From Calidithermus chliarophilus DSM 9957 (GTDB lineage: Bacteria > Deinococcota > Deinococci > Deinococcales > Thermaceae), in the NCBI RefSeq assembly GCF_000430045.1, contig NZ_KE387023.1, positions 1,799,461-1,863,460 of the forward strand: DNA of 64,000 nt, written 5' to 3'. Below the pieces are notes generated by a model, which saw only the letters and a list, made by a program, of their open reading frames with translations, ran no database searches and was not told the origin of the DNA. The translations under genes were made by a program, and so were the position numbers. The stretch's first letter is position 1; each line of letters opens with the position of its first letter. Positions 14,914-37,670 of this stretch are shown here, one piece after another.

Positions 14914-16398
14914 TTAGCGGGCATCGCTGATGATGTTGGCGGTGATGATGATCAGTAGCTCCTCACTGCTGACGGTGCTGGTGCGCTGCTTGAAGAGCAG
15001 GTCGAGGATGGGGATGTCGCCGAGTATGGGAACCTTGTTCTCCTCGTTGACGGTGTTTTGCTGGACCACTCCACCGATCACTACGGTCTGGCCATCCTTG
15101 ATGCGCAGCTTGGTACGGTCGGAGCGGGTCTTCACCTCGATGCTGTTGGCGATAGGGCCTTGCCTGGGCTGCTCCCCGGTCTGGGTGAAAACCTCCAGGG
15201 TGATCTGCCCGTCCGCGGTGATCTGCGGGACGACGCGCACGAGCAGGCCCACGTCGAACTCGCGGGTGGGTTCGCCCTGCACCTGCGGGGTGACGATGAG
15301 CCTCGAGCCCGACTTGACCTCGAAGTTGGGGTAGTTGTCCTCGACGATCTGGGTCACGTCGCTCAGGCGGCGGGCCAGGCTCTGCTGCTCGAGGATGTCG
15401 AGCACCGCCCGGATGTTGAGCGCGGCCAGGCTCTTGGAGGCGTCGAAGATCAGGCTCAGGGCGCCGTCGATGATGCTGCCGACGAGGTTCCCCCCGCTCA
15501 AGCTCTCCCACTTGATGCCGAAGCTGCTGACCACGCTGCTGTCCACCGACTGGATGCGCACCTTGAGCTGCACCTGTTTAACCGGCACGTCGAGCTCGCG
15601 GATGAGGGCTTCCACGCGGGCCATCTGCTCGGGGCTGGCGGTCACGATCAGGGTGTTGGTGCGAACGTCGGCGGTGAAGAAGGCCGTGCTCTGGGCTTGG
15701 GGCTGGGCCTGAGGCTGGGTTTGGCCCTGGGCCTGCTGCCCGTTGCTCTTGCCCTCGAGCGCCGAGCTGAGCACCTCGGCCATCGCCTCGGCGCGGGCGT
15801 GGGCCAGCTTGAAGTTGCGGGTAATCCGGTCCACCTGCGCCTGGGGCCGGTCGATCTGGGCGAGCAGGGCGGCGATCTCGGAGTGCTGCTTCTCGGTCGC
15901 GGTGATGAGCAGGGTGGGCTGCCCGGGCGCGACGGTCACGCGGATGCCGGGGATTTCGGCCTCAAGGAAGCTCTTGAGCGCGGTGGGGTTGCCGTTGATG
16001 GCGTAGCTGCGGCGCACGGTGGGCTCTTCCGTGGGCGTGGTCGGCTGCTGCGCCGTCTTGGGCACGTAGCGCGAGACCACTTCCGGAGAAGCCACCAGCA
16101 TCACGTTGTTCTCCAGGAGGATGTAGTCGAGCTTGCCGTCGCCGTAGGTGTTGATGAGCAGGTCCCAGACCTGGCGGAAGGGCTTCTTCTCCAGCGAAAC
16201 CCGCACTAAGGTGGCCGGGATGTCCCGCAGCAGAGGGGTAAGGCCCACGCTGGTCGCCGTGCTGCGCAGGGCGTCCTCCAGCGGGATGCCGTTGGGGGCG
16301 ATCAGGTCCACCGCCTGGTCGAAGCGGGCGTCCCTGGGGAGGCTACCCGCGAAGGCCAGGCTCAGGAGTAAGACGATAAGGGACAGGATTCGTTGCAT
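14914..16398 (-). CDS. pilQ: Type IV pilus/competence secretin PilQ
   Basis: Outer-membrane secretin through which the pilus, and DNA in natural transformation, passes. Signal peptide at 1-17. N-terminal periplasmic repeats (about 20-220) include a Gln-rich linker (about 215-240); the secretin domain is C-terminal, with VPILGDIPILDLLF as the family signature. At 494 residues it is much shorter than the Thermus thermophilus PilQ (about 757 as I recall), missing periplasmic N-domains. Last gene of pilMNOWQ. Confidence 0.92.
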   Translation of the reverse strand: MQRILSLIVLLLSLAFAGSLPRDARFDQAVDLIAPNGIPLEDALRSTATSVGLTPLLRDIPATLVRVSLEKKPFRQVWDLLINTYGDGKLDYILLENNVMLVASPEVVSRYVPKTAQQPTTPTEEPTVRRSYAINGNPTALKSFLEAEIPGIRVTVAPGQPTLLITATEKQHSEIAALLAQIDRPQAQVDRITRNFKLAHARAEAMAEVLSSALEGKSNGQQAQGQTQPQAQPQAQSTAFFTADVRTNTLIVTASPEQMARVEALIRELDVPVKQVQLKVRIQSVDSSVVSSFGIKWESLSGGNLVGSIIDGALSLIFDASKSLAALNIRAVLDILEQQSLARRLSDVTQIVEDNYPNFEVKSGSRLIVTPQVQGEPTREFDVGLLVRVVPQITADGQITLEVFTQTGEQPRQGPIANSIEVKTRSDRTKLRIKDGQTVVIGGVVQQNTVNEENKVPILGDIPILDLLFKQRTSTVSSEELLIIITANIISDAR

Positions 16399-16413
16399 AA
16401 GCTATCACCGCCT

Positions 16414-17523
16414 CTAGGGGTTCACCAGTTCGAGCGTAAGGCTTTCCGACCCCTGCACCAAGAGGGCTTCGCGGGCTGTTAAGGTTTTAAGAAGGACCTC
16501 GCTCTCGGGGAAATTGCGCCCCACCGGGAGCACGAAGAAGCCGTTCTTGCCCTGGAAGATGCCCACGCTCGTGGGGCCGAGCACCACGCCGACGAGCCGC
16601 AGGTTCTGCTCCTGCACGAAGCGGGTCAGGACCGAGACCACCGGGGTTTTGACGACGGGGGTGGTGGCCGGCGTGGTGGGCGTGGCCTTGGGCTCGAGCG
16701 TCGGGTTGGGCTGTCCCTGCTGGCCGACGGGAGGGAGGCTGGTGCTGCCGCCGAGGTTGGCCTCGCCGGGCTGGGCCACCTGCGGCTGCGTGGGCTGGGT
16801 GGCCTGGGCGGTGGGGACTTCGCGGTCGAGCGGGGCGAGCCGCAGGGGGAGAGCCCCGCCGCTCAGGCTGGGGGCCGGGGCCGGCGTGCTCGCCCCGGCA
16901 CGGGGGTTGGCGGCCGGAAGCCGGGCCTGGCTGCCGCTGCCCGCGGGGGCCGTGGTGGGCGTCGCGGTGGGGCGAGGGGTGGGGGCCGGAGCCGTCACCC
17001 GGATGTTGGGCGAGGGAAGGGGCGTCTGCACCGGGCGAACTTGCACCCGGGGGCCGCTGGGGATGGCCCGGGTCGGGGGCGGGGTCTGCGCCACCACGGG
17101 TGGAGGGGTGGGCTGGGTGGCGGTGGCGGTGACGGTAGGCTGCTGGCTGGGCGGGACCTCCTCCGGGAACAGCGGCATGAAGGGGTTGGGAGGTGCCTGC
17201 ACCTGCAGGCGGCCGGGGGCCGTGGGCCCGGGGCTGGCCTGGGCCGGCTGGGCCGGACCGCTCTGGGCCTCGGGGGCAGGGCTTTCGCCGGGCGTGGTCT
17301 CGGCCTTGAGGAAAGGCAGCGGCACGACCTCGAGCGAGCGCGCGGGAACGGTTCCCTCCGGAGGGGTCACGGGGGTGGTGGGCGTGACCGCAGTGTCCGC
17401 CGGCTGCCCCACCTGGCTCGCCACCAGGTACCACACCCCGACGAGCCCGGCGAACAGCAGGCCCGCCAGGGCCACCTTGGTGGACTGGGGGAGTTTGCGG
17501 AGGGTGTTGCCGAGCTGGTTCAT
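16414..17523 (-). CDS. pilW: Pilus assembly protein PilW/PilP-like, Pro/Thr-rich
   Basis: Position between pilO and pilQ corresponds to Thermus pilW (PilP analogue). 369 residues: one N-terminal membrane helix (about 17-37), a very long Pro/Thr/Ala/Gln-rich linker (about 38-280) able to span the periplasm, and a small C-terminal beta domain (about 290-369: LRLVGVVLGPTSVGIFQGKN) like the PilP domain that contacts the secretin. Overlaps pilO by 4 nt. The linker is low-complexity, so homology is visible only at the ends. Confidence 0.82.
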   Translation of the reverse strand: MNQLGNTLRKLPQSTKVALAGLLFAGLVGVWYLVASQVGQPADTAVTPTTPVTPPEGTVPARSLEVVPLPFLKAETTPGESPAPEAQSGPAQPAQASPGPTAPGRLQVQAPPNPFMPLFPEEVPPSQQPTVTATATQPTPPPVVAQTPPPTRAIPSGPRVQVRPVQTPLPSPNIRVTAPAPTPRPTATPTTAPAGSGSQARLPAANPRAGASTPAPAPSLSGGALPLRLAPLDREVPTAQATQPTQPQVAQPGEANLGGSTSLPPVGQQGQPNPTLEPKATPTTPATTPVVKTPVVSVLTRFVQEQNLRLVGVVLGPTSVGIFQGKNGFFVLPVGRNFPESEVLLKTLTAREALLVQGSESLTLELVNP

Positions 17524-18107
17524 TGCTGCCCTCCCTGCGGCGCCGCGGCCTGACCGGTGTAGACGTAGACGGTCATGGTCATGCTGCTGTTGATGATGGG
17601 GTTGCTGCTCTCAGCGCCCACCGTCAGGTTGAGGCCCGCGACGGTGGCGAAGCGCTGGAGGTTCTCGAGCTGCTTCAGGAAGGTGAAGAGCTCGGGGAAG
17701 GGCGACTCGACCTGCATCGCCAGGTTGATCGTTCGCACCCCGGCCACCTCGCTGCCGCCGGTGGTGCGCCCGATGGTCTTGAGCGTGACCCCGCTGCGGC
17801 GGGCGAGCTGGGTGAGAAGGGTGAGCACCTGGGAGAGGTCCTCTTGCGGGGGCAACTCGCGGAAGAAGCGCTGGCGCTGGAGCTCGAGGTCGAGGATGGT
17901 CGCGCGCAGTTGGGGCAGCGCCCGCTCGGCCGCCCGTCCCCGGTCACGCTGCACCGAGAGCTCGGCGATCTGGCTGCGCAGCAGGCCGATCTCCGAACGC
18001 ATGGGCTGAATCAGGAAGAAGTACAGCCCCAAAGCCAGCAAAAAGGAGGCCAGGATGATGATGATGGCCCATTCGCGTTGGCCGAGCCTAGCGAGCACCT
18101 TGTCCAC
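17520..18107 (-). CDS. pilO: Type IV pilus inner-membrane protein PilO
   Basis: 195 residues: short cytoplasmic start, one membrane helix (about 13-35), coiled coil (about 40-85) and a periplasmic ferredoxin-like domain. With PilM and PilN it forms the inner-membrane alignment complex. Its start overlaps the end of pilN by 20 nt and its end overlaps pilW by 4 nt. Confidence 0.9.
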   Translation of the reverse strand: MDKVLARLGQREWAIIIILASFLLALGLYFFLIQPMRSEIGLLRSQIAELSVQRDRGRAAERALPQLRATILDLELQRQRFFRELPPQEDLSQVLTLLTQLARRSGVTLKTIGRTTGGSEVAGVRTINLAMQVESPFPELFTFLKQLENLQRFATVAGLNLTVGAESSNPIINSSMTMTVYVYTGQAAAPQGGQQ

Positions 18108-18792
18108 CTCCTGTGGCGCTGCCCTGCGGGGCGGAGCTGGTGCTGCCGGGCGCGGGCTGCGCGCCCGGGACGCTGTCCACCAGCCCGACCGTGGCGGAGA
18201 AGGTGTAGACCCCCCGCTGCAGGTCGAGGCTGGAGTCGCGGAAGTTGATGCCGAAGCGCGGCGAGGACTCGAAGGCGTCGACGAAGCGGATGAGCTCGCG
18301 CTCGTTGAGGGCTTCGCCGCGCAGGTCGAACTCCACCCGGGCGCTCTTGCCGTCGTAGGCCCCGGCCTGGGCGGCGGTCTGGGACTCGGCGGGCGTGAGC
18401 AGCTTGGTGCCGATGCTCTTGAGGTTGACCCCGAAGGCGCTGCCGCTGGGGGCGCTGCTGGAGCGGGGGATCTGGTTGATGACGGCCGCCAGGTAGTCCG
18501 ACCAGTTGACCTTGCTCTGCTCGAGCTGGCTGCGGATCGCGATCACCTGCTGGAGCTCGGTGCGCTGCTGCTCGAGGCGGCGCTGTTCGGCGATGAAGCG
18601 TTGCAACGAGTTGACCTCGATCTGAAGCTGTTCTTGTTCCCTTTGGAGCGCGTTGCGCTCGGAAAGGGTGGAGAAGTAGAGGTAAGCCGTGATGCCCAAC
18701 GCCAGCCCGGCGAAGCCGACGGCGGCCAGTCGCCACCACCCCGGCTCGACCCGGCGGCGCAGGGTCTTGGGCAGCAGGTTGAGCTTAATCAA
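18088..18792 (-). CDS. pilN: Type IV pilus inner-membrane protein PilN
   Basis: 234 residues starting MIKLNLLP, the conserved cytoplasmic peptide that docks onto PilM. One membrane helix (about 20-42), coiled coil, then a ferredoxin-like periplasmic domain and a Gly/Ser/Gln-rich tail. Overlaps pilM by 8 nt and pilO by 20 nt. Confidence 0.92.
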   Translation of the reverse strand: MIKLNLLPKTLRRRVEPGWWRLAAVGFAGLALGITAYLYFSTLSERNALQREQEQLQIEVNSLQRFIAEQRRLEQQRTELQQVIAIRSQLEQSKVNWSDYLAAVINQIPRSSSAPSGSAFGVNLKSIGTKLLTPAESQTAAQAGAYDGKSARVEFDLRGEALNERELIRFVDAFESSPRFGINFRDSSLDLQRGVYTFSATVGLVDSVPGAQPAPGSTSSAPQGSATGGGQGAR

Positions 18793-19924
18793 TTGAACCC
18801 ACCCCCCGCATGGCTAAGCCCACCGGCACCACGAACTCGGCGGAGAGGCCGCGCAGGTAGTCCGGATCGAAGCGGCTCTTGTCGTAAGACACGTTTTTCC
18901 AGGGGTCCACCACTTCCAGCGGGATGCCCAGGGTGTCGGCCAGCAGCGGCACCAAGCTGCGCAGCTTGCTGCCGCCCCCCGCCACGAAGCCCTGGTCGAT
19001 GCCCAGGTCGCCGACTTGCACCCGGAAGAACTCGAGGCTGCGCCGCAGCTCGGTGGTGAGCTCGACGAGCACCGGGCGGATGGCGTCGTACATGCGCGCC
19101 GGGTTGAAGCGCTCGCGCTCGGCGTCGAAGTCGAGGAGCAGGTCCTCGTCCTCGGTGGGGATGGTCGCCAGGCCGTAGTTCTTCTTGGCCTCCTCGGCGG
19201 CGGTGCTGTCGAGGTTGAAGGCCTTGGCGATGGCCGCGGTGAAGTCCTTGCCCGAGAGGTTGATGACGCGGTTGAGCAGCAGGCGCTCCCCGCGGGTCAG
19301 CACCAGCGCGCTCGACTCCGCGCCGATCTCGAAGTACAGCGTCACCAGCTCGCGGCCGCCGTCGCCCACGAGCTGCGGCTCGAGCACGCGCAGCCCGGCA
19401 AAAGGCTTGACGTCGATGATCAGTGGCTCGAGGCTCGCGGCCTTGAGGGTCTCGACCAGGCTGGCTACGGTCTCCTGCCGCGCCGCCCCCACCACCACGT
19501 CCATCTGCTCACCTTCCGCTACGCTGTCGAGGGGGTCCAAGGGCGCATAGTCCATCACCACTTCGTCGATGGGGAAGGGGATGTAGCGCTCGGCTTCCCA
19601 GCGCACGGCCTCCTCGAGCTGCTTGGCGGCCATCTTGGGCACCTGCAAGGTGCGGGTGATGACCGCCGAGTTGCTCACCGCCGTTACCACGTAGCGCTTG
19701 CGGGTACGGATCTCCGCCAGCATCTCGCGCAGCTCGTTGGCCAGCGCCTGTGGATCAGCGATGTTGCCCTCCTGGAAGAGTCCTGGAGGGGTTGGCCGGA
19801 TGGATAAGCCCCGCAACGTAGGGGGTGTCCCCGACAACTCTACCAGCTTGAGGTTGGCCGAACCGATCTCGAGGCCCAGGGCCTCGACCCGTGGCTTCAA
19901 CAAGCTGCTAAAGAACTCACGCAC
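18785..19924 (-). CDS. pilM: Type IV pilus assembly ATPase-like protein PilM
   Basis: Actin-like (FtsA fold) cytoplasmic protein that recruits PilN. 379 residues with LGLEIGSANLKLVEL near the start (phosphate 1 loop) and VAGGGSKLRSLVPLL (adenosine loop, about 312-326). Start GTG with AAAGGGGG upstream; a TATACT box lies at 19968-19973 (complement), about 44 nt before the start, so this operon has a normal leader rather than being leaderless. First gene of pilMNOWQ. Confidence 0.93.
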   Translation of the reverse strand: MREFFSSLLKPRVEALGLEIGSANLKLVELSGTPPTLRGLSIRPTPPGLFQEGNIADPQALANELREMLAEIRTRKRYVVTAVSNSAVITRTLQVPKMAAKQLEEAVRWEAERYIPFPIDEVVMDYAPLDPLDSVAEGEQMDVVVGAARQETVASLVETLKAASLEPLIIDVKPFAGLRVLEPQLVGDGGRELVTLYFEIGAESSALVLTRGERLLLNRVINLSGKDFTAAIAKAFNLDSTAAEEAKKNYGLATIPTEDEDLLLDFDAERERFNPARMYDAIRPVLVELTTELRRSLEFFRVQVGDLGIDQGFVAGGGSKLRSLVPLLADTLGIPLEVVDPWKNVSYDKSRFDPDYLRGLSAEFVVPVGLAMRGVGSID

Positions 19925-20049
19925 ACTGCCCCCTTTCGGTCAACATGGGTCTCCAGGACGGTATTTGAGTATAACATTAGCGCAATTCCTGGGACCTTCT
20001 GCTTGCATCAGTGTAACGTACCCCGTTGCGACTGCAATGGTCAAATGAA

Positions 20050-20074
20050 CTCCTGGACGAATCTCGTCCAGGAG
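20050..20074 (-). terminator. Hairpin between homoisocitrate dehydrogenase and pilM
   Basis: Perfect 11-bp stem 20050-20060/20064-20074 with a 3-nt loop, about 55 nt past the dehydrogenase stop. There is no good T-tract, so termination strength is uncertain. Confidence 0.5.
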
Positions 20075-20128
20075 CCAATTTGAGCCTTTGGGAAGGGTTG
20101 TATAAAGAACAAGTTAACGAACCTGGCG

Positions 20129-21136
20129 TTACAGCGCCGCCGCCACGGCCTTGGCGAAGGTTTCGGTGTTGGCGTCGCCTCCGAGGTCGGGGGTGCGGGG
20201 GCCGTTCTCGAGCACCCGGTCCACGGCGCGCTCGAGGCGCCGCGCGGTCTCGTGCTCGCCCAGGTGGTCGAGCATCATGGCCGCGGAGAGGATGGTGGCG
20301 GCGGGGTTGGCGATGCCCTTGCCGGCGATGTCGGGGGCCGAGCCGTGCACCGGCTCGAAGATGGCGTTGTCGAGCCCGATGTTGCCGCTGGCGGCGATGC
20401 CCAGGCCGCCCACCAGCCCGGCGGTGAGGTCGGAGATGATGTCGCCGAAGAGGTTGGTGGTCACCAGCACGTCGAAGCGCTCGGGCCGGATCACCAGTTG
20501 CATCGCGCAGTTGTCGATGATGATGTCCTGGGTCTTGACCTCGGGGTAGTTCTTGGCCTGCTCGAGCACCGTGTTAAGGAACAGCCCCTGGGTCAGCGGG
20601 AGCACGTTGGCCTTGTGGGCCACGTGGAGCTGCTTGCGCGGGCGGGTCATGGCGAGCTTGAGCGCGTACTCGCCGATGCGCGAGCTGGCCTTGCGGGTGA
20701 TCACGGTGTCGGCGATGGCCAGCTCCCCGCCCAGGTAGCTGCGCTCCTGCTCGACGTAAAGCCCCTCGGTGTTCTCGCGCACCACGATGAGGTCCACCCC
20801 CTCGCGCGCCCCGGGCACGGGGTGGTACTTGGCGGGGCGCACGTTGGCGAAGAGGTCCAGGCGTTTACGCAGGTAACGGATGGCGCCGAAGAAGCCCGGC
20901 ACCTTCTTGTTGGGGCTGCTGGCCGCCCCGAACAGGGTGGCGTCGGTGGAGGCGATCTTCTCGACCGTCTCCTCGGGGACTGAGATCCCCACTCTTTCGA
21001 AGGTCTCCCAGCCCGCCTCGGCCTCCACGAAGTCGAGCTTCAGCCCGGTGGCCTCGAGCACCAGCCGGGCGGCCGGGATCACCTCGTGGCCGATGCCATC
21101 GCCTTCGATCAGACAGATTTTGTAGGTGCGGCTCAT
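20129..21136 (-). CDS. Homoisocitrate dehydrogenase
   Basis: NAD-dependent oxidative decarboxylation of homoisocitrate to 2-oxoadipate in the alpha-aminoadipate lysine pathway of Thermus. 335 residues that follow the Thermus HICDH closely: [16 protein letters not shown], then [17 protein letters not shown] (the Arg-rich substrate loop), [20 protein letters not shown] and [18 protein letters not shown]. This distinguishes it from 3-isopropylmalate and isocitrate dehydrogenases. A TAGAAT box at 21154-21159 (complement) is a possible promoter. No other lysine gene is in the window. Confidence 0.9.
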
Positions 21137-21227
21137 TCAAATCACCAGCCGCCATTCTACGCCCTTTTCCGCCGGGCGCATTTCCTTAAACGGCCTGCCC
21201 CTACCACGGCCCCGGCGCCCGGCCGGC

Positions 21228-21701
21228 TCAGTCCGTGTCGAAGCGGATGTCGATGTTCCACTCCTGCCGCCGCTGCCGCCTGGCCTCGAGGCCCAGCTCG
21301 AGCACCAGCGCCGCGATCCCGATGATCAGATAAACGTCGCCCAGGCTGAGCACGCTCTTGGCCCAGTAGACGGGGAGGATATCCCCTAAATAGTAGAAGG
21401 GCGTGTCCGGGGTCATGAGCGAATGCACCGCGTCCGAGCGGGCCGTGAGCTGCTGGGCCATGCCCTCGCGGGCTTCGGGCGGGACGGCCTCGAGCCACAC
21501 CGGCATGTGCCCCCGGTTCGCCACGATGACCAGCGTGTTGAGCGCGAAGCCCAGCCAGACGAACCACAGGCTGCGAAGGCGCAGGTTCGCCAGCAGGCCG
21601 TAGCTCACGCACGCCAGCACGCCCGCCTTCGCCAGCGGCCCCCCCACCTCGGGGCTCAGCCACCCCCGGCCGGTCGAGAAGCCGACGAGGGCCTCGAGCA
21701 A
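21228..21701 (-). CDS. DUF5317-type membrane protein, start uncertain
   Basis: 157 residues from TTG 21701, with three to four membrane helices and a charged C-terminus (ELGLEARRQRRQEW). It resembles DUF5317 proteins, often found beside HD-domain genes. The frame stays open for another 120 nt upstream inside the HD-GYP gene and encodes a further convincing membrane helix (YLASALVGLALALALRV and AGWVFLAGALLEALVG), yet it has no ATG, GTG or TTG there. The true start may be non-standard (for example ACG just after GGGAGG), or the protein may come from frameshifting out of the HD gene, which ends at 21731 in another frame. Confidence 0.7.
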   Translation of the reverse strand: MLEALVGFSTGRGWLSPEVGGPLAKAGVLACVSYGLLANLRLRSLWFVWLGFALNTLVIVANRGHMPVWLEAVPPEAREGMAQQLTARSDAVHSLMTPDTPFYYLGDILPVYWAKSVLSLGDVYLIIGIAALVLELGLEARRQRRQEWNIDIRFDTD

Positions 21702-21730
21702 GGCCCCCGCGAGAAAAACCCACCCGGCCT

Positions 21731-23116
21731 TCAGCTCGACTTTGGCGAAGTCGCCGGGGCGGACTCGGAGCGCGAGGGCAAGGGCAAGTCCAACGAGGGC
21801 ACTGGCGAGGTATAGCTGCGTAGGAAAACCTCCCGGTCCTTCCAGATGGGGTCCTGCAACCAGATCCCCTTAAAGAGCTTAACCAGTTCCGGGTCGAACT
21901 GGTCCCCGGCGAGGTCCTCGAGCTCCTGCATCGCCCGCTGGGGCGACTTGGGGGGCGAGTAAGAACGCCCCGCCGTCATGGCCTCGTAGGCGTCCGCGAT
22001 GCAGACGATACGCGCCCACAGTGGAATGGCGTCCCCTGCCCGGCCCTCGGGATACCCCCGCCCGTCCCAGCGCTCGTGGTGGTAGAGCACGATCGGCAGG
22101 ACCTCCTTGAAGTAGCGGGCCGCCGGCTTGAGGATCTCGGCGCCGCGGGTGGTGTGGCTCTTAATCAGCTCGAACTCCTGGCTGGTCAGCCGGATCGGCT
22201 TGAGCAGCACGTCGTCGGGGATGCCCACCTTGCCGATGTCGTGGATGCGCGCGCCATAGGCGATCTTGCGCCGATCGGCTTCATCGAGGCCTTTGGCTCG
22301 AGCCAGGTCCGTTGCGATCGCCGCGACCCGCTCAGAGTGGAGCCGTGTAAAAGTATCCTTCGCGTCGAGCGCTTGAACGAGGGTGTCGATGGTGGCGTTG
22401 AAAGAGTCCTCGAGTTTGACTTTCTCGTCCCAGTAGAAGCGGGAGAAGTAGAGCAGCAGCATAAAAACAAGTACGGTGTATCCACCCCAATCCCCTACGA
22501 GCGGAGTTCTATATGCACTCGCCAAAAACAAAGCTACGGGAGCAGTGATCAGGTAGCTATAGGAGAGCCAGCTAAAGTTGTCATGCCAAATCTTTATAAC
22601 CGGTACCTTTGACGCAAGGTGAATTACAGCTACTACTAGCCCAACATTGACGACGAAGTAGACGATAGATGCGAGAGCTATCCCAGCAAGAGCGGTAACA
22701 TCAACAGATGCAACCTTTAGTGAGAAGGTTGAGTTGACGAAGAACCAGGTGAAGCTTGCCGCGCTTGCCGCAAGCCCTGTTTGGACACGGTTGAAAAGAT
22801 CCTTATACCAAGGGTATGTGTGGTTGAGTTGCTCATACCGGAAGATAACCAGCAACGTCGGAGCTACCCACGGCGGGAAAAGTATAGCGGTGGCTAGAGC
22901 GACGACGTAGGAGTGTGAGATCCCGGCTTCAAAGGGAAGTTTGACGCCTACTCGCGTAGCAGCTACAAGAAGCAAGCCCCAGAAGAAGATGTCAAAGGCT
23001 GAAACATTGCCTACCTGAGATATGCGGGATAACAAGAGTACGGTTAGCAGCAGTAGTGCCGTCAAACCAAAGATATAGATAAGTACTGGCTTAGGCGGCA
23101 ACGAAGCTTTAGACAT
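21731..23116 (-). CDS. Membrane-anchored HD-GYP domain protein (putative cyclic-di-GMP phosphodiesterase)
   Basis: 461 residues. The N-terminal half (about 1-240) has seven or so hydrophobic helices, a likely sensor. The C-terminal half is an HD-GYP domain: HSERVAAIA, HDIGKVGIPDDVL, HHERWDGRGYPEG (the HD-GYP signature) and ADAYEAMTAGR; the metal-binding His/Asp residues are all present. It would hydrolyse cyclic-di-GMP. The DNA is chimeric: 22460-23116 is clearly AT-rich with unusual codons (AAA, TTA, ATA) while 21731-22440 has the normal GC-rich, CTCGAG-rich style. Overlaps the DUF5317 frame downstream. Confidence 0.88.
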   Translation of the reverse strand: MSKASLPPKPVLIYIFGLTALLLLTVLLLSRISQVGNVSAFDIFFWGLLLVAATRVGVKLPFEAGISHSYVVALATAILFPPWVAPTLLVIFRYEQLNHTYPWYKDLFNRVQTGLAASAASFTWFFVNSTFSLKVASVDVTALAGIALASIVYFVVNVGLVVAVIHLASKVPVIKIWHDNFSWLSYSYLITAPVALFLASAYRTPLVGDWGGYTVLVFMLLLYFSRFYWDEKVKLEDSFNATIDTLVQALDAKDTFTRLHSERVAAIATDLARAKGLDEADRRKIAYGARIHDIGKVGIPDDVLLKPIRLTSQEFELIKSHTTRGAEILKPAARYFKEVLPIVLYHHERWDGRGYPEGRAGDAIPLWARIVCIADAYEAMTAGRSYSPPKSPQRAMQELEDLAGDQFDPELVKLFKGIWLQDPIWKDREVFLRSYTSPVPSLDLPLPSRSESAPATSPKSS

Positions 23117-23149
23117 TGCTCAAGTACTTTAACAGATACTTAAAATAAA

Positions 23150-23181
23150 GTCAGGTGCAAGTTTCACAACTTGCACCTGAC
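23150..23181 (-). terminator. Terminator after the small peptide gene
   Basis: Perfect 14-bp stem 23150-23163/23168-23181 with TCAC loop; on the minus strand it is followed by a T-rich run (TTTATTTTAAG). Lies between the peptide gene and the HD-GYP gene. Confidence 0.85.
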
Positions 23182-23204
23182 TACTCCACTTACTTCTCTT
23201 GCTT

Positions 23205-23294
23205 TTACCGCCACTCAGCGCTAGCACCGGCAGCAAGGCCGAGGGCTACGAGGCTGGAAAGCAGAGCGAAAACTTTGTAGGCGAGCTTTTTCAT
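23205..23294 (-). CDS. 29-residue putative secreted peptide
   Basis: Reads MKKLAYKVFALLSSLVAL followed by GLAAGASAEWR and TAA. It has a basic N-terminus, a hydrophobic core, and a signal-peptidase-like AGASA site that would release only EWR, or none if the peptide stays in the membrane. Evidence that it is a gene: GGGGAGG six nt before the ATG, a consensus promoter upstream and a strong terminator downstream. It resembles the leader part of AgrD-type autoinducer precursors, but lacks Cys and the charged tail, so that assignment is not made. It could be a signal peptide for the neighbouring membrane sensor, a small membrane protein, or the remnant of a longer gene. Confidence 0.6.
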   Translation of the reverse strand: MKKLAYKVFALLSSLVALGLAAGASAEWR

Positions 23295-23347
23295 GGTGAT
23301 CCTCCCCAAGGAACCTAGAACCATTCCGTTCCTGTTCTCTTGAGAGA

Positions 23348-23376
23348 ATCATAAGAAGATCAAGACGCCCGGTCAA
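23348..23376 (-). promoter_or_regulatory. Promoter of the small peptide gene
   Basis: TTGACC (-35, 23371-23376 complement), 17-bp spacer, TATGAT (-10, 23348-23353). This near-consensus sigma-A promoter is the best one in this region; it gives a leader of about 47 nt. A near-palindromic motif lies just upstream at 23401-23421. Confidence 0.8.
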
Positions 23377-35942: not shown

Positions 35943-37670
35943 ATGAAGAAAATCCTGGCTCTAAGCATGCTGGCTTTGGCAGGGCTGGCCGTGGCCCAGC
36001 CCAAGGTGTTCAAGGGGGTGGAAGCGGGCAAGGCGGGCGGTAACTACCGCATCTCCGCCATCTCCGACCCCCGCACCTTCAACCCCTTCGTGGCCCGCGA
36101 GACTTCCTCCACCAACGTCATCGCGCTCTTCCTGCCGACCCTCACGGGCTACGACCCCTACGGCCTGAAGCCTGAGGGGCTGCTCGCCCAGTCGTGGGAG
36201 CTTCGCAACAACGGCCTCTCCGTGATCTTCAAGCTGCGCCAGGGCGCGAAGTGGTCGGACGGGCAGACCATCGACGCCGACGACGTGATCTTCAGCGCCA
36301 CCGCCCACGCCGACCCCAAGGTCAACTCCAACTCCCGCAGCTCCTTCGTCATCGACGGCCAGCCGGTGAAGTGGACCAAGGTCGACCAGTACACCGTGCG
36401 CGCCGACTTCCCCAAGCCCTACGCCCCGGCGCTGATCCAGGGGTGGTACATCGCGCCCGAGCACATCTTCGGCGAGGCCTACAAGGCCGGCAAGATCGCC
36501 GAGCTGTGGACCCTCGAGACCCCGGTGAACCGCATCGTCTCGGGCGGCCCCTTCATGCTGGAGTCCTACGCCAAGGGCGAGCGCGTGGTGCTCAAGCGCA
36601 ACCCCAACTACTGGGGCGTGGACGACAAGAACAACGCCGTCGCCTACCTCGAGCGCTACACCTTCATCACCGTGCCCGACCTCAATGCCTCGCTGGCTAA
36701 GTTCCTCGCGGGCGAGACCGACGCCTACAACGCCTCCAACGCCGACCAGGTGGCCCAGATCCTCGAGCGCGTTCGCTCGGGCGGCCTGAAGGGCGAGGTG
36801 TTCCCCAACGCCGACGTGACCACCGGCACCGAGTTCATCGTCTTCAACTGGAACAACAAAGACCCCAACAAGGCCAAGCTGTTCCGCTCGGTGAAGTTCC
36901 GCCGCGCCATGGCCCACCTGGTGGACAAGAAGTCCATGATCGAAGTGGCCCTGGGCGGCCTGGGCCAGCCCATGTGGAGCCCCATTTCCATCCCGGTCAA
37001 GCAGTTCTTCACCGACGACGTGATCAAGTACGAGTTCAGCCCCCAGAAGGCTGCCGCCCTGCTGGCCGAGCTCGGCTTCCGCAAGAAGAACGCCCAGGGC
37101 TTCCTGGTGGATGCCTCGGGTAAGGTGCTCGAGTTCAACTTCGTCACCAACCAGGGCAACAACACCCGCGAGAAGATCGCCCAGATCTTCGCCGAGGACG
37201 CCAAGAAGGCCGGCGTCAAGGTCAACTACCGTCCCGTCGACTTCAACGAGCTCGTGCGCCAGCTCACCCAGCCCGCCGCCGACGGCACCCGCGACTTCGA
37301 CGCCATCCTCATCGGCCTGACCGGCAGCATCGAGCCCGCCTTCAGCCGCAACACCTGGCAGCTCAACGGCTCGCTGCACGCCTGGAACCTGGGCGTCGGC
37401 GGCCAGGCTCCCAAGCAGGTCGAGTCCTTCGAGGTGCTCATCGACAAGCTGATGACCCAGGGCGCGACCACCCTCGACCCGGCCAAGCGCCGCGAGATCT
37501 ACGTGCAGTTCCAGAAGGTCGTGGCCGAGAACCTGCCCTTCATCTACACCGTAGCCCCGGCGTACAACCCTGCCCGCAACGCCCGGTTGGGCGGCCTGTT
37601 CCCCAAGGCGCAGCTCAACTCCATCGTGGGCCAGTTCCCCTACATCGAGACGGTCTTTACCAAGGAGTAA
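35943..37670 (+). CDS. Peptide ABC transporter, substrate-binding protein (family 5)
   Basis: 575 residues. Signal peptide MKKILALSMLALAGLAVAQ; then the SBP family-5 pattern: SDPRTFNPFVARETSS, AKWSDGQTIDADDVIFS (signature) and MAHLVDKKSMIE. Binds oligopeptides or similar solutes outside the membrane and hands them to the permeases encoded next. Lacks a lipobox Cys, so periplasmic rather than lipid-anchored. First gene of the five-gene transporter cluster. Confidence 0.93.
   Translation: MKKILALSMLALAGLAVAQPKVFKGVEAGKAGGNYRISAISDPRTFNPFVARETSSTNVIALFLPTLTGYDPYGLKPEGLLAQSWELRNNGLSVIFKLRQGAKWSDGQTIDADDVIFSATAHADPKVNSNSRSSFVIDGQPVKWTKVDQYTVRADFPKPYAPALIQGWYIAPEHIFGEAYKAGKIAELWTLETPVNRIVSGGPFMLESYAKGERVVLKRNPNYWGVDDKNNAVAYLERYTFITVPDLNASLAKFLAGETDAYNASNADQVAQILERVRSGGLKGEVFPNADVTTGTEFIVFNWNNKDPNKAKLFRSVKFRRAMAHLVDKKSMIEVALGGLGQPMWSPISIPVKQFFTDDVIKYEFSPQKAAALLAELGFRKKNAQGFLVDASGKVLEFNFVTNQGNNTREKIAQIFAEDAKKAGVKVNYRPVDFNELVRQLTQPAADGTRDFDAILIGLTGSIEPAFSRNTWQLNGSLHAWNLGVGGQAPKQVESFEVLIDKLMTQGATTLDPAKRREIYVQFQKVVAENLPFIYTVAPAYNPARNARLGGLFPKAQLNSIVGQFPYIETVFTKE

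Follow-up and report, generated by a model that had tools for sequence, protein, structure and literature searches.

A gene of 29 codons on the minus strand of Calidithermus chliarophilus DSM 9957, within a 64,000-nucleotide stretch of its genome (hereafter the window), was found to be half of a conserved pair, the other half being a protein in which a MASE9 membrane sensor domain is fused to an HD-GYP domain. It was demonstrated that the two genes occur together across species, that the C-terminal residues of the peptide covary with single sensor positions, and that the peptide tail and the sensor form a hypervariable cassette. This joint change of tail and sensor, established from genome sequences alone, suggests a peptide signal, so far undescribed, together with its receptor. 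It is considered probable that a pentapeptide derived from the precursor signals to the adjoining MASE9 domain and alters HD-GYP activity, the cassette diversifying as in pherotype systems; release, a cell-cell role, the change in cyclic di-GMP (c-di-GMP) and a pilus output are inferences. Regarding the separate parts of this proposal, the tail would most likely be a ligand that sets HD-GYP activity, the c-di-GMP change being inferred, and the balance tilts towards a cell-cell signal with private specificity, since fast private diversification and signal–sensor covariation are seen together in pherotype systems; its release and cell-cell role are inferred. An earlier note on this DNA had offered a peptide signal read by the sensor as an attractive but unproven idea, which gains support from the tail–MASE9 covariation and the shared cassette.

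The peptide gene (23205..23294, minus strand, 29 codons plus stop) was identified by translation of the open reading frame and by profile matches in relatives, and encodes MKKLAYKVFALLSSLVALGLAAGASAEWR. Its first 24 codons (23223..23294, minus strand) specify a conserved, signal-peptide-like leader with A-x-A ahead of the tail, and the following five (23208..23222, minus strand) the hypervariable C-terminal pentapeptide SAEWR, the proposed ligand, with its aromatic residue at position +4. A ribosome-binding site, GGGGAGG, lies 5' of the ATG at 23301..23307 on the same strand, as the earlier note had read it. A longer in-frame start at 23324, which would give 39 aa, was rejected, since conservation among orthologues begins at the methionine of MKK, behind GGAG-type sites. 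The near-consensus promoter TTGACC-17-TATGAT (23348..23376, minus strand), with 10 of 12 consensus matches, was confirmed; one promoter-like site was found in 2 kb at this locus against 0.6 expected. Such a site recurs upstream of the peptide gene in 59/59 orthologous loci read, 50 of them placing it at –79 to –94 from the start codon, compared with 37% of mononucleotide shuffles. Between the peptide gene and the HD-GYP gene, a terminator-like hairpin (23149..23182, minus strand) runs into the T-rich TTTATTTTAAG; the 14-bp terminator previously proposed is present as a hairpin, but the scan gave it 15 pairs, and it lies just outside 23205–23376, the segment to which it had been assigned. Hairpins of this kind occur no more than 110 nt 3' of the peptide gene in 55/59 loci, against 27% of mononucleotide shuffles, and their stem sequences differ between lineages. 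Judged by the orthologous loci against the shuffles, promoter and terminator at the peptide locus exceed chance.

The peptide family was read out from profile matches with no pattern imposed on the tail, and 59 of 60 genomes could be read (G079 was left out). All 59 peptides have 28–30 residues (G051 has 28 or 29, depending on the start), so that the outcome which would have refuted the earlier proposal, namely a peptide gene absent, degenerate or truncated from a longer gene beside the sensors, was not seen. The boundary between leader and tail reads A-x-A in 57 of the 59 and V-x-A in two; position +4 of the tail is Trp in 54, Phe in three and Tyr in two. The first five tail residues form 54 different tails among the 59 genomes, none of which contains Cys. 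In three groups of 24, 18 and 11 genomes, pN/pS was 0.27–0.33 in the leader versus 0.65–0.87 in the tail without +4, and in close pairs (n = 37) leaders differ by 8% and tails by 43%. The peptide had no NCBIfam or Pfam match at E ≤ 10. A chance open reading frame or a degenerate gene was rejected in view of the conservation in relatives and the lower pN/pS of the leader; the 29-residue peptide gene reported earlier is real, being half of a conserved pair.

The hairpins behind the gene, together with the Trp codon kept near its end in 54/59 loci, would also suit a cis-acting leader peptide, with attenuation or ribosome arrest controlling the HD-GYP gene and the product itself having no function. 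This explanation is considered very improbable, since it gives no reason for the covariation with receptor amino acids described below, and since the residues next to the stop codon vary freely except at +4, unlike those of arrest peptides as generally known.

The search for receptor and peptide covered 61 related genomes at first and then 111 Deinococcota genomes. Among the 111, MASE9 was matched in 60, namely 59 genomes of families f1 and f4 plus one short match in G050, and DUF5317 in 63. A profile of 30 peptides matched 61 of the 111 at E ≤ 0.01; the match in G083 (E 0.0075, inside a 404-residue frame) was set aside, leaving 60 peptide-bearing genomes, all in families f1 and f4 and with a single match each, except for two in G029. 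The peptide was present in 58 of the 59 MASE9-positive genomes of these families, and in 57 genomes peptide and MASE9-HD-GYP gene lay on one contig; in G017, each was found at a contig end. The earlier note had looked to a co-occurrence of such peptides with HD-GYP genes bearing this sensor, which was thus borne out, and the feature expected of a peptide pheromone, a small precursor gene adjoining a receptor gene across species, was met. The sole MASE9-positive genome of the two families without a peptide-profile match (G075) has a receptor frame lacking the N-terminal half of MASE9. Two genomes, G033 and G058, carry the peptide but no MASE9 match, and in these a contig ends 40 and 264 bases, respectively, from the peptide; in G039 peptide and receptor are together while DUF5317 is elsewhere in the genome. 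The system can evidently be lost, since the receptor frame is truncated or broken in five genomes whose peptide is intact (G022, G024, G067, G070 and G076). As side observations, the receptor gene of G024 contains, in its MASE9 half, a transposase-like reading frame named by eye, and that of G070 is broken by a run of N, the peptide gene persisting in both; the short MASE9 match of G050 (family f3; contig 40, 66038–66358) falls in a 1066-residue frame, without a peptide-profile match. A purely local import of the gene pair was rejected, because the pair is common to two families of the order.

The paired protein, of 461 aa (21731..23116, minus strand), was recognized by Pfam matches to MASE9 and HD_5. 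The MASE9 sensor domain (PF20972; residues 32–227, 22436..23023, minus strand) scored 61 bits against a Pfam cut-off of 24.3, and contains the positions that covary with the tail (54, 57, 103, 113, 153 and 181). The HD-GYP phosphodiesterase domain (residues 246–411, 21884..22381, minus strand) is supported by HD_5 and by matches to solved folds. The motifs expected of HD-GYP enzymes, HDIGK and HHERWDGxGYP, were invariant in 31 aligned orthologues, and by domain and motifs this half is predicted to be a c-di-GMP phosphodiesterase, the hydrolysis of c-di-GMP being inferred. An AlphaFold2 model of the receptor reached a mean pLDDT of 84.8, and the closest solved folds of its C-terminal half were HD-GYP enzymes such as 4mcw.

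The two halves of this protein differ in their divergence. Between the window and its nearest congener (G000–G001), identity was 96% in the HD half versus 53% in MASE9, in agreement with the earlier reading of a new sensor half of the HD-GYP protein. By sliding identity, the hypervariable cassette extends over the peptide tail, the terminator and the sensor half (about 22486..23222, minus strand, ends approximate). Against Calidithermus roseus, the nearest named relative found, 45-nt identities were 0.38–0.73 between 23250 and 22486 and mostly 0.7–0.98 outside, the valley of the window spanning about 23205 to 22486. Five congeneric pairs were compared, chosen for high MASE9 divergence at close kinship and not at random. 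In four of them, identities dropped to about 0.4–0.7 where the peptide gene ends, stayed low until MASE9 ends and recovered on both flanks; the fifth (G008–G072) had a shallow dip (0.71–0.92) and an upstream flank little better. Among the 10 pairs with HD identity of at least 0.95, one of them identical, MASE9 identity averaged 0.77, and the synonymous difference was 0.47 in MASE9 versus 0.18 in HD. The GC content was 0.49 in the MASE9 half of the window versus 0.64 in the HD half; since MASE9 GC lies below HD GC in 47/52 genomes, low GC alone is no proof of import. The imported island that the earlier note had assumed is upheld only for the cassette itself, which takes in the peptide tail, the MASE9 half and what lies between them (about 22486–23222); the surrounding locus is conserved, and the cassette may have been exchanged or may be evolving very fast. 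Co-diversification of signal and sensor with a conserved leader and output domain, a further feature expected of pheromone systems, was met.

The covariation analysis comprised 52 receptors with 309 variable receptor columns. Seven of the 59 read peptides had no usable receptor frame in the locus and were left out (G017, G024, G033, G058, G067, G070 and G076); the truncated receptor of G022 (383 aa) was kept, and pair counts by residue were taken from a 51-row table without G062. It was verified from these alignments that residues of the tail and individual positions of MASE9 covary more than phylogeny accounts for, most clearly for +2 with 181 and +5 with 57. For +2 and position 181, nMI was 0.71, with the next column at 0.39 (z 6.7, n = 52), Ala pairing with Phe in 23/24 rows and Thr with Tyr in 14/14. 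For +5 and position 57, the charge correlation was r = –0.68, with the next at –0.41; tail Lys or Arg accompanied Glu57 in 16/23 rows, and tail Glu accompanied Arg or Lys57 in 8/12 and never Glu. By plain nMI, column 97 (0.47) stands just above column 57 (0.45) for this residue. At +1 and position 153 the margin was small (nMI 0.68, next 0.56), with Ser–Phe in 23/24, Asp–Tyr in 5/5 and Thr–Leu in 5/5. It was also small at +3 and column 54, where nMI was 0.64 but an HD column reached 0.59; His at +3 accompanied Asp113 in 16/16. At +4, column 331 of the HD half (0.93) scored as high as MASE9 column 103 (0.90), because Phe and Tyr tails are confined to one group of genomes. The window pair itself fits at +2 (Ala with Phe181), is the single Ser–Tyr exception at +1 (Ser with Tyr153) and is neutral at +5 (Arg with Gly57).

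Shared ancestry was addressed in several ways. In simulations along the tree of the HD half, the observed value was matched in 0/2000 for each chosen pair, and the simulated maximum over all columns matched the observed one in 0/600 for +1, +2, +3 and +5. In a 42-genome set the best columns were again 153, 181, 54 and 57, +2 with 181 reaching 0.79. DUF5317 served as a control, available in 42 of the 52 genomes; its best columns gave 0.56, 0.37, 0.55 and 0.37 for +1, +2, +3 and +5, and its best charge correlation with +5 was –0.33 versus –0.68 at position 57. Additionally, the other MASE9 columns remain far below 181 for +2 despite their common cassette history, so shared ancestry is not enough at this position. 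Among 37 pairs with HD identity of at least 0.88, which are not independent, the difference between tails rose with divergence in MASE9 (rho 0.65) but not with that in the HD half (–0.13). A test of independent pairs on well-supported branches did not reach 0.05, with at most eight pairs among those listed and one bad row. As for the leader, the best receptor column of 10 of its 12 variable positions lay in the HD half, as phylogeny gives; leader –18 (with column 18) and –9 (with column 68) found a MASE9 column at z > 4, with gaps to the next of only 0.08 and 0.02.

Co-diversification of an effector and its partner is also known in toxin–immunity pairs, and membrane toxins are known to include short products of this size (about 29 residues) that are cationic and hydrophobic, so a membrane-active or bacteriocin-like peptide, with MASE9 as immunity partner or target, had to be weighed. 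This seems highly unlikely: it is the terminal five residues that covary, the hydrophobic portion being conserved; an enzyme whose HD-GYP motifs are intact would make an unusual immunity protein; and the peptide gene persists in the five genomes with a broken receptor, where a toxin would be punished.

The main rival to a released signal is a retained regulatory subunit, that is, a membrane microprotein that is never released and remains attached to MASE9 within the cell that makes it, its tail seated in the receptor and no cell-cell signal being involved. This was judged unlikely, though far less so than the toxin or the cis-acting leader. The length and hydrophobicity of the peptide would suit a single membrane helix, covariation between tail and receptor is what a fixed interface would give, and the two leader positions with z > 4 could belong to such an interface. 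The topology bears on this question as well. In the model, loops L1, L3 and L5 contain or adjoin positions 54, 57, 103, 113 and 181, and position 153 belongs to a helix. Lys and Arg average 1.65, 2.23 and 2.40 per loop in L1, L3 and L5 and 2.02 at the N-terminus, versus 1.06 in L0, 0.00 in L2, 0.21 in L4 and 0.06 in L6. Since L1, L3 and L5 are positive and the HD-GYP domain is inside, the contact loops seem to be cytoplasmic, which favors retention; a leader with its N-terminus inside would leave the tail outside, so that re-import, a retained peptide or a wrong topology is needed. The genome has 13 matches to oligopeptide-binding proteins (SBP_bac_5) and two to signal peptidase I, so the means for either route, re-import or retention, are present. 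One SBP_bac_5 match lies in the window at about 36168–37340, some 13 kb from the peptide gene. On the other side, such a subunit would have the leader as its membrane part, and leaders hardly differ in close pairs although the membrane domain of the receptor has heavily diverged. Moreover, the best columns for most variable leader positions lie in the HD half, the A-x-A motif is kept before the tail, and fast private diversification of the tail would not be expected of an internal subunit.

The predicted fold of MASE9 resembles the S-components of ECF transporters (FolT, CbiM, RibU and BioY), proteins that bind small ligands, and this was counted in favor of the preferred reading. With Foldseek, the model matched TmRibU at probability 1.00, E 0.034 and a target TM of 0.66, and VIA Z scores were 13.0 for a chain of the folate ECF complex, 12.7 for CbiM and 10.0 for TmRibU, with 10–13 for many S-components. 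Helical bundles can reach Z 13 through arrangement alone, and the likeness, which concerns a model, shows neither homology nor a ligand; moreover, the loop charges of MASE9 and the side of the HD-GYP domain imply a membrane orientation opposite to that of S-components.

Returning to the preferred reading of a released pentapeptide signal, the 29-residue product would be a precursor whose conserved hydrophobic leader brings it to the membrane, where signal peptidase probably cleaves it behind AAGA. The pentapeptide at its C-terminus (SAEWR in the window) would then be a species-specific signal that binds in the MASE9 domain of the protein encoded alongside, with the aromatic residue at +4 as an anchor and positions +1, +2, +3 and +5 conferring specificity, and binding would alter how actively the attached HD-GYP domain hydrolyses c-di-GMP. 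The near-consensus promoter and the terminator behind the peptide gene may ensure that more signal than receptor is made. As in pherotype systems, tail and MASE9 would change jointly, by exchange or by diversification, against a constant background of leader, promoter and catalytic half. No experimental work on these genes came to light.

The third member of the cluster is a DUF5317 membrane protein (21228..21743, minus strand), whose start is unsure and which probably overlaps the HD-GYP gene. DUF5317 was matched in 59 of 61 HD-GYP loci, some genomes being counted twice; its model gave no Foldseek match at E ≤ 0.001. Six neighbouring proteins were scanned, namely DUF5317, an isocitrate/isopropylmalate dehydrogenase (LeuB-like), a glycosyltransferase, an ATP-cone protein, PilM and a secretin, and no exporter, protease or importer was found among these six, a result that also favors the retained subunit. 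In the window, positions 14914–21701 carry on one strand DUF5317, the LeuB-like dehydrogenase gene and then PilM and the secretin gene. PilM was matched in 22 loci (some genomes twice, and many truncated where the locus stops), and it followed the LeuB-like gene in 19/19 loci where both were mapped. Type IV pilus functions are likely outputs, the pilus output and the link from receptor to PilF being inferred. In the part of the published text that was available, impaired c-di-GMP binding by the GSPII-B domain of PilF in T. thermophilus lowered twitching and adhesion by about 40% and did not lower transformation (PMC11731258). If the proposal is true, cell-cell signalling would be tied to c-di-GMP in Thermus, at a locus that adjoins pilM.

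Divergent versions of the cluster were also encountered. Three Thermus genomes (G075, G020 and G036) carry a second, divergent MASE9-HD-GYP locus with DUF5317 nearby, each with its own divergent small reading frame upstream ending GGGWVW, GGGWVW or GGGFVW; in G020 the Pfam MASE9 match of this locus is below the cut-off. In the second locus of G075 peptide and receptor are separated by a TnpB-like reading frame (identified by eye), and in that of G036 a frame change splits the receptor. A tblastn search of plasmids found this gene order in two Bacillota plasmids: in Natranaerobius thermophilus, the reading frame MNKVVLILVTLLGVVLAGGASFTWGGGG followed by MASE9-HD-GYP and DUF5317, both split in the annotation, and, in Subdoligranulum, the reading frame MKKILFALASLCSLVLASGAFFCVR followed by an HD-GYP protein, whose N-terminal half has no Pfam MASE9 match, and then DUF5317. 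Both plasmid peptide frames were picked by eye, and MKKILFALASLCSLVLASGAFFCVR lacks an aromatic residue at +4. Upstream of both lies an unnamed gene (L135, 2325–2990; L136, 1842–2492) the products of which, similar by eye, matched nothing in Pfam; the cluster as found in Bacillota may include this gene. When viral sequences were scanned with the Subdoligranulum receptor, a single match was obtained, in the HD part only. Short DUF5317-like reading frames with NGGxMPV and SPGD motifs were noticed in three phage-like IMG/VR contigs (L132–L134), in two of which (L133 and L134) they lie beside a phosphoglycerate-mutase-like frame, as judged by eye; no HD-GYP protein was seen among the frames of at least 100 aa listed around them. 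Among 14 control genomes, MASE9 and DUF5317 were both matched only in Thermotoga maritima and Thermus composti, and a scan of named genomes gave 31 loci, all of Thermus, Meiothermus, Calidithermus or Thermaceae, so that other phyla are known here only from the two plasmids and the control matches in T. maritima. A wider hypothesis, held only tentatively and with somewhat more doubt than belief, is that of a cross-phylum, one-component peptide quorum sensing, in which a micro-precursor would be read by MASE9 fused to a c-di-GMP phosphodiesterase, with DUF5317 as a partner that perhaps processes or moves the peptide. It would be a main peptide language of the Thermales, found also in Bacillota and perhaps in Thermotoga, with private cassette pherotypes and cytoplasmic reading after re-import.

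A survey of 106 thermophilic eubacteria found no complete peptide quorum-sensing system, with peptide signalling only in Thermotoga maritima, as far as the available portion of its text goes (PMC6022435). In the literature searched, from which most subscription papers fell outside, MASE9 appeared only in an unrelated colorectal cancer context and DUF5317 had no mention; for HD-GYP with a peptide pheromone, and for Thermus with a small open reading frame, the pairing was absent from titles and the beginnings of abstracts among the matches listed. The proposed ligand can be read directly from the genome, as five residues together with predicted contact positions in the receptor, so that inexpensive synthetic peptides suffice to test a sensor whose signal is unknown.

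Among known systems, the Rpf/DSF pathway offers an HD-GYP phosphodiesterase, RpfG, that is driven by a cell-cell signal, as is here proposed; however, the DSF fatty acid is sensed by a separate histidine kinase, RpfC, whereas in the present case a single protein combines sensor and HD-GYP, and a ribosomally made peptide is proposed as the signal. The Agr system (AgrBDCA) likewise has a small, leader-bearing precursor encoded beside its receptor and a hypervariable signal and sensor, but the peptide described here has neither Cys in its tail nor anything after the signal, and an AgrD-type peptide was rejected, since the AgrB family was found in 0/61 genomes and the peptide matches no NCBIfam or Pfam family. 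The Phr and SHP peptides of the RRNPP group, which are exported and re-imported, come from very short precursors in which a hydrophobic leader precedes the C-terminal mature peptide (some five residues long in Phr). The short leader-bearing precursor is alike, and such a route would suit a receptor pocket on the cytoplasmic side. RRNPP receptors, however, are cytosolic TPR proteins, an expectation not met here, where the paired receptor domain lies in the membrane and is carried by a c-di-GMP enzyme. In comparison with ComQXPA of Bacillus, no ComQ-like protein, histidine kinase or response regulator was found among the six neighbours scanned, MASE9 is fused to an HD-GYP phosphodiesterase, the tail has 5–6 residues, and the phylum is another. 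The likeness lies in the architecture of variation: in the portion of the published account that was available, ComX is extremely variable, with Trp near its C-terminus and most variation at the active signal, and the N-terminal domain of ComP is variable (PMC4008528), so that both systems combine a conserved leader, a variable C-terminal signal with Trp, a variable membrane half of the receptor and a more conserved output protein.
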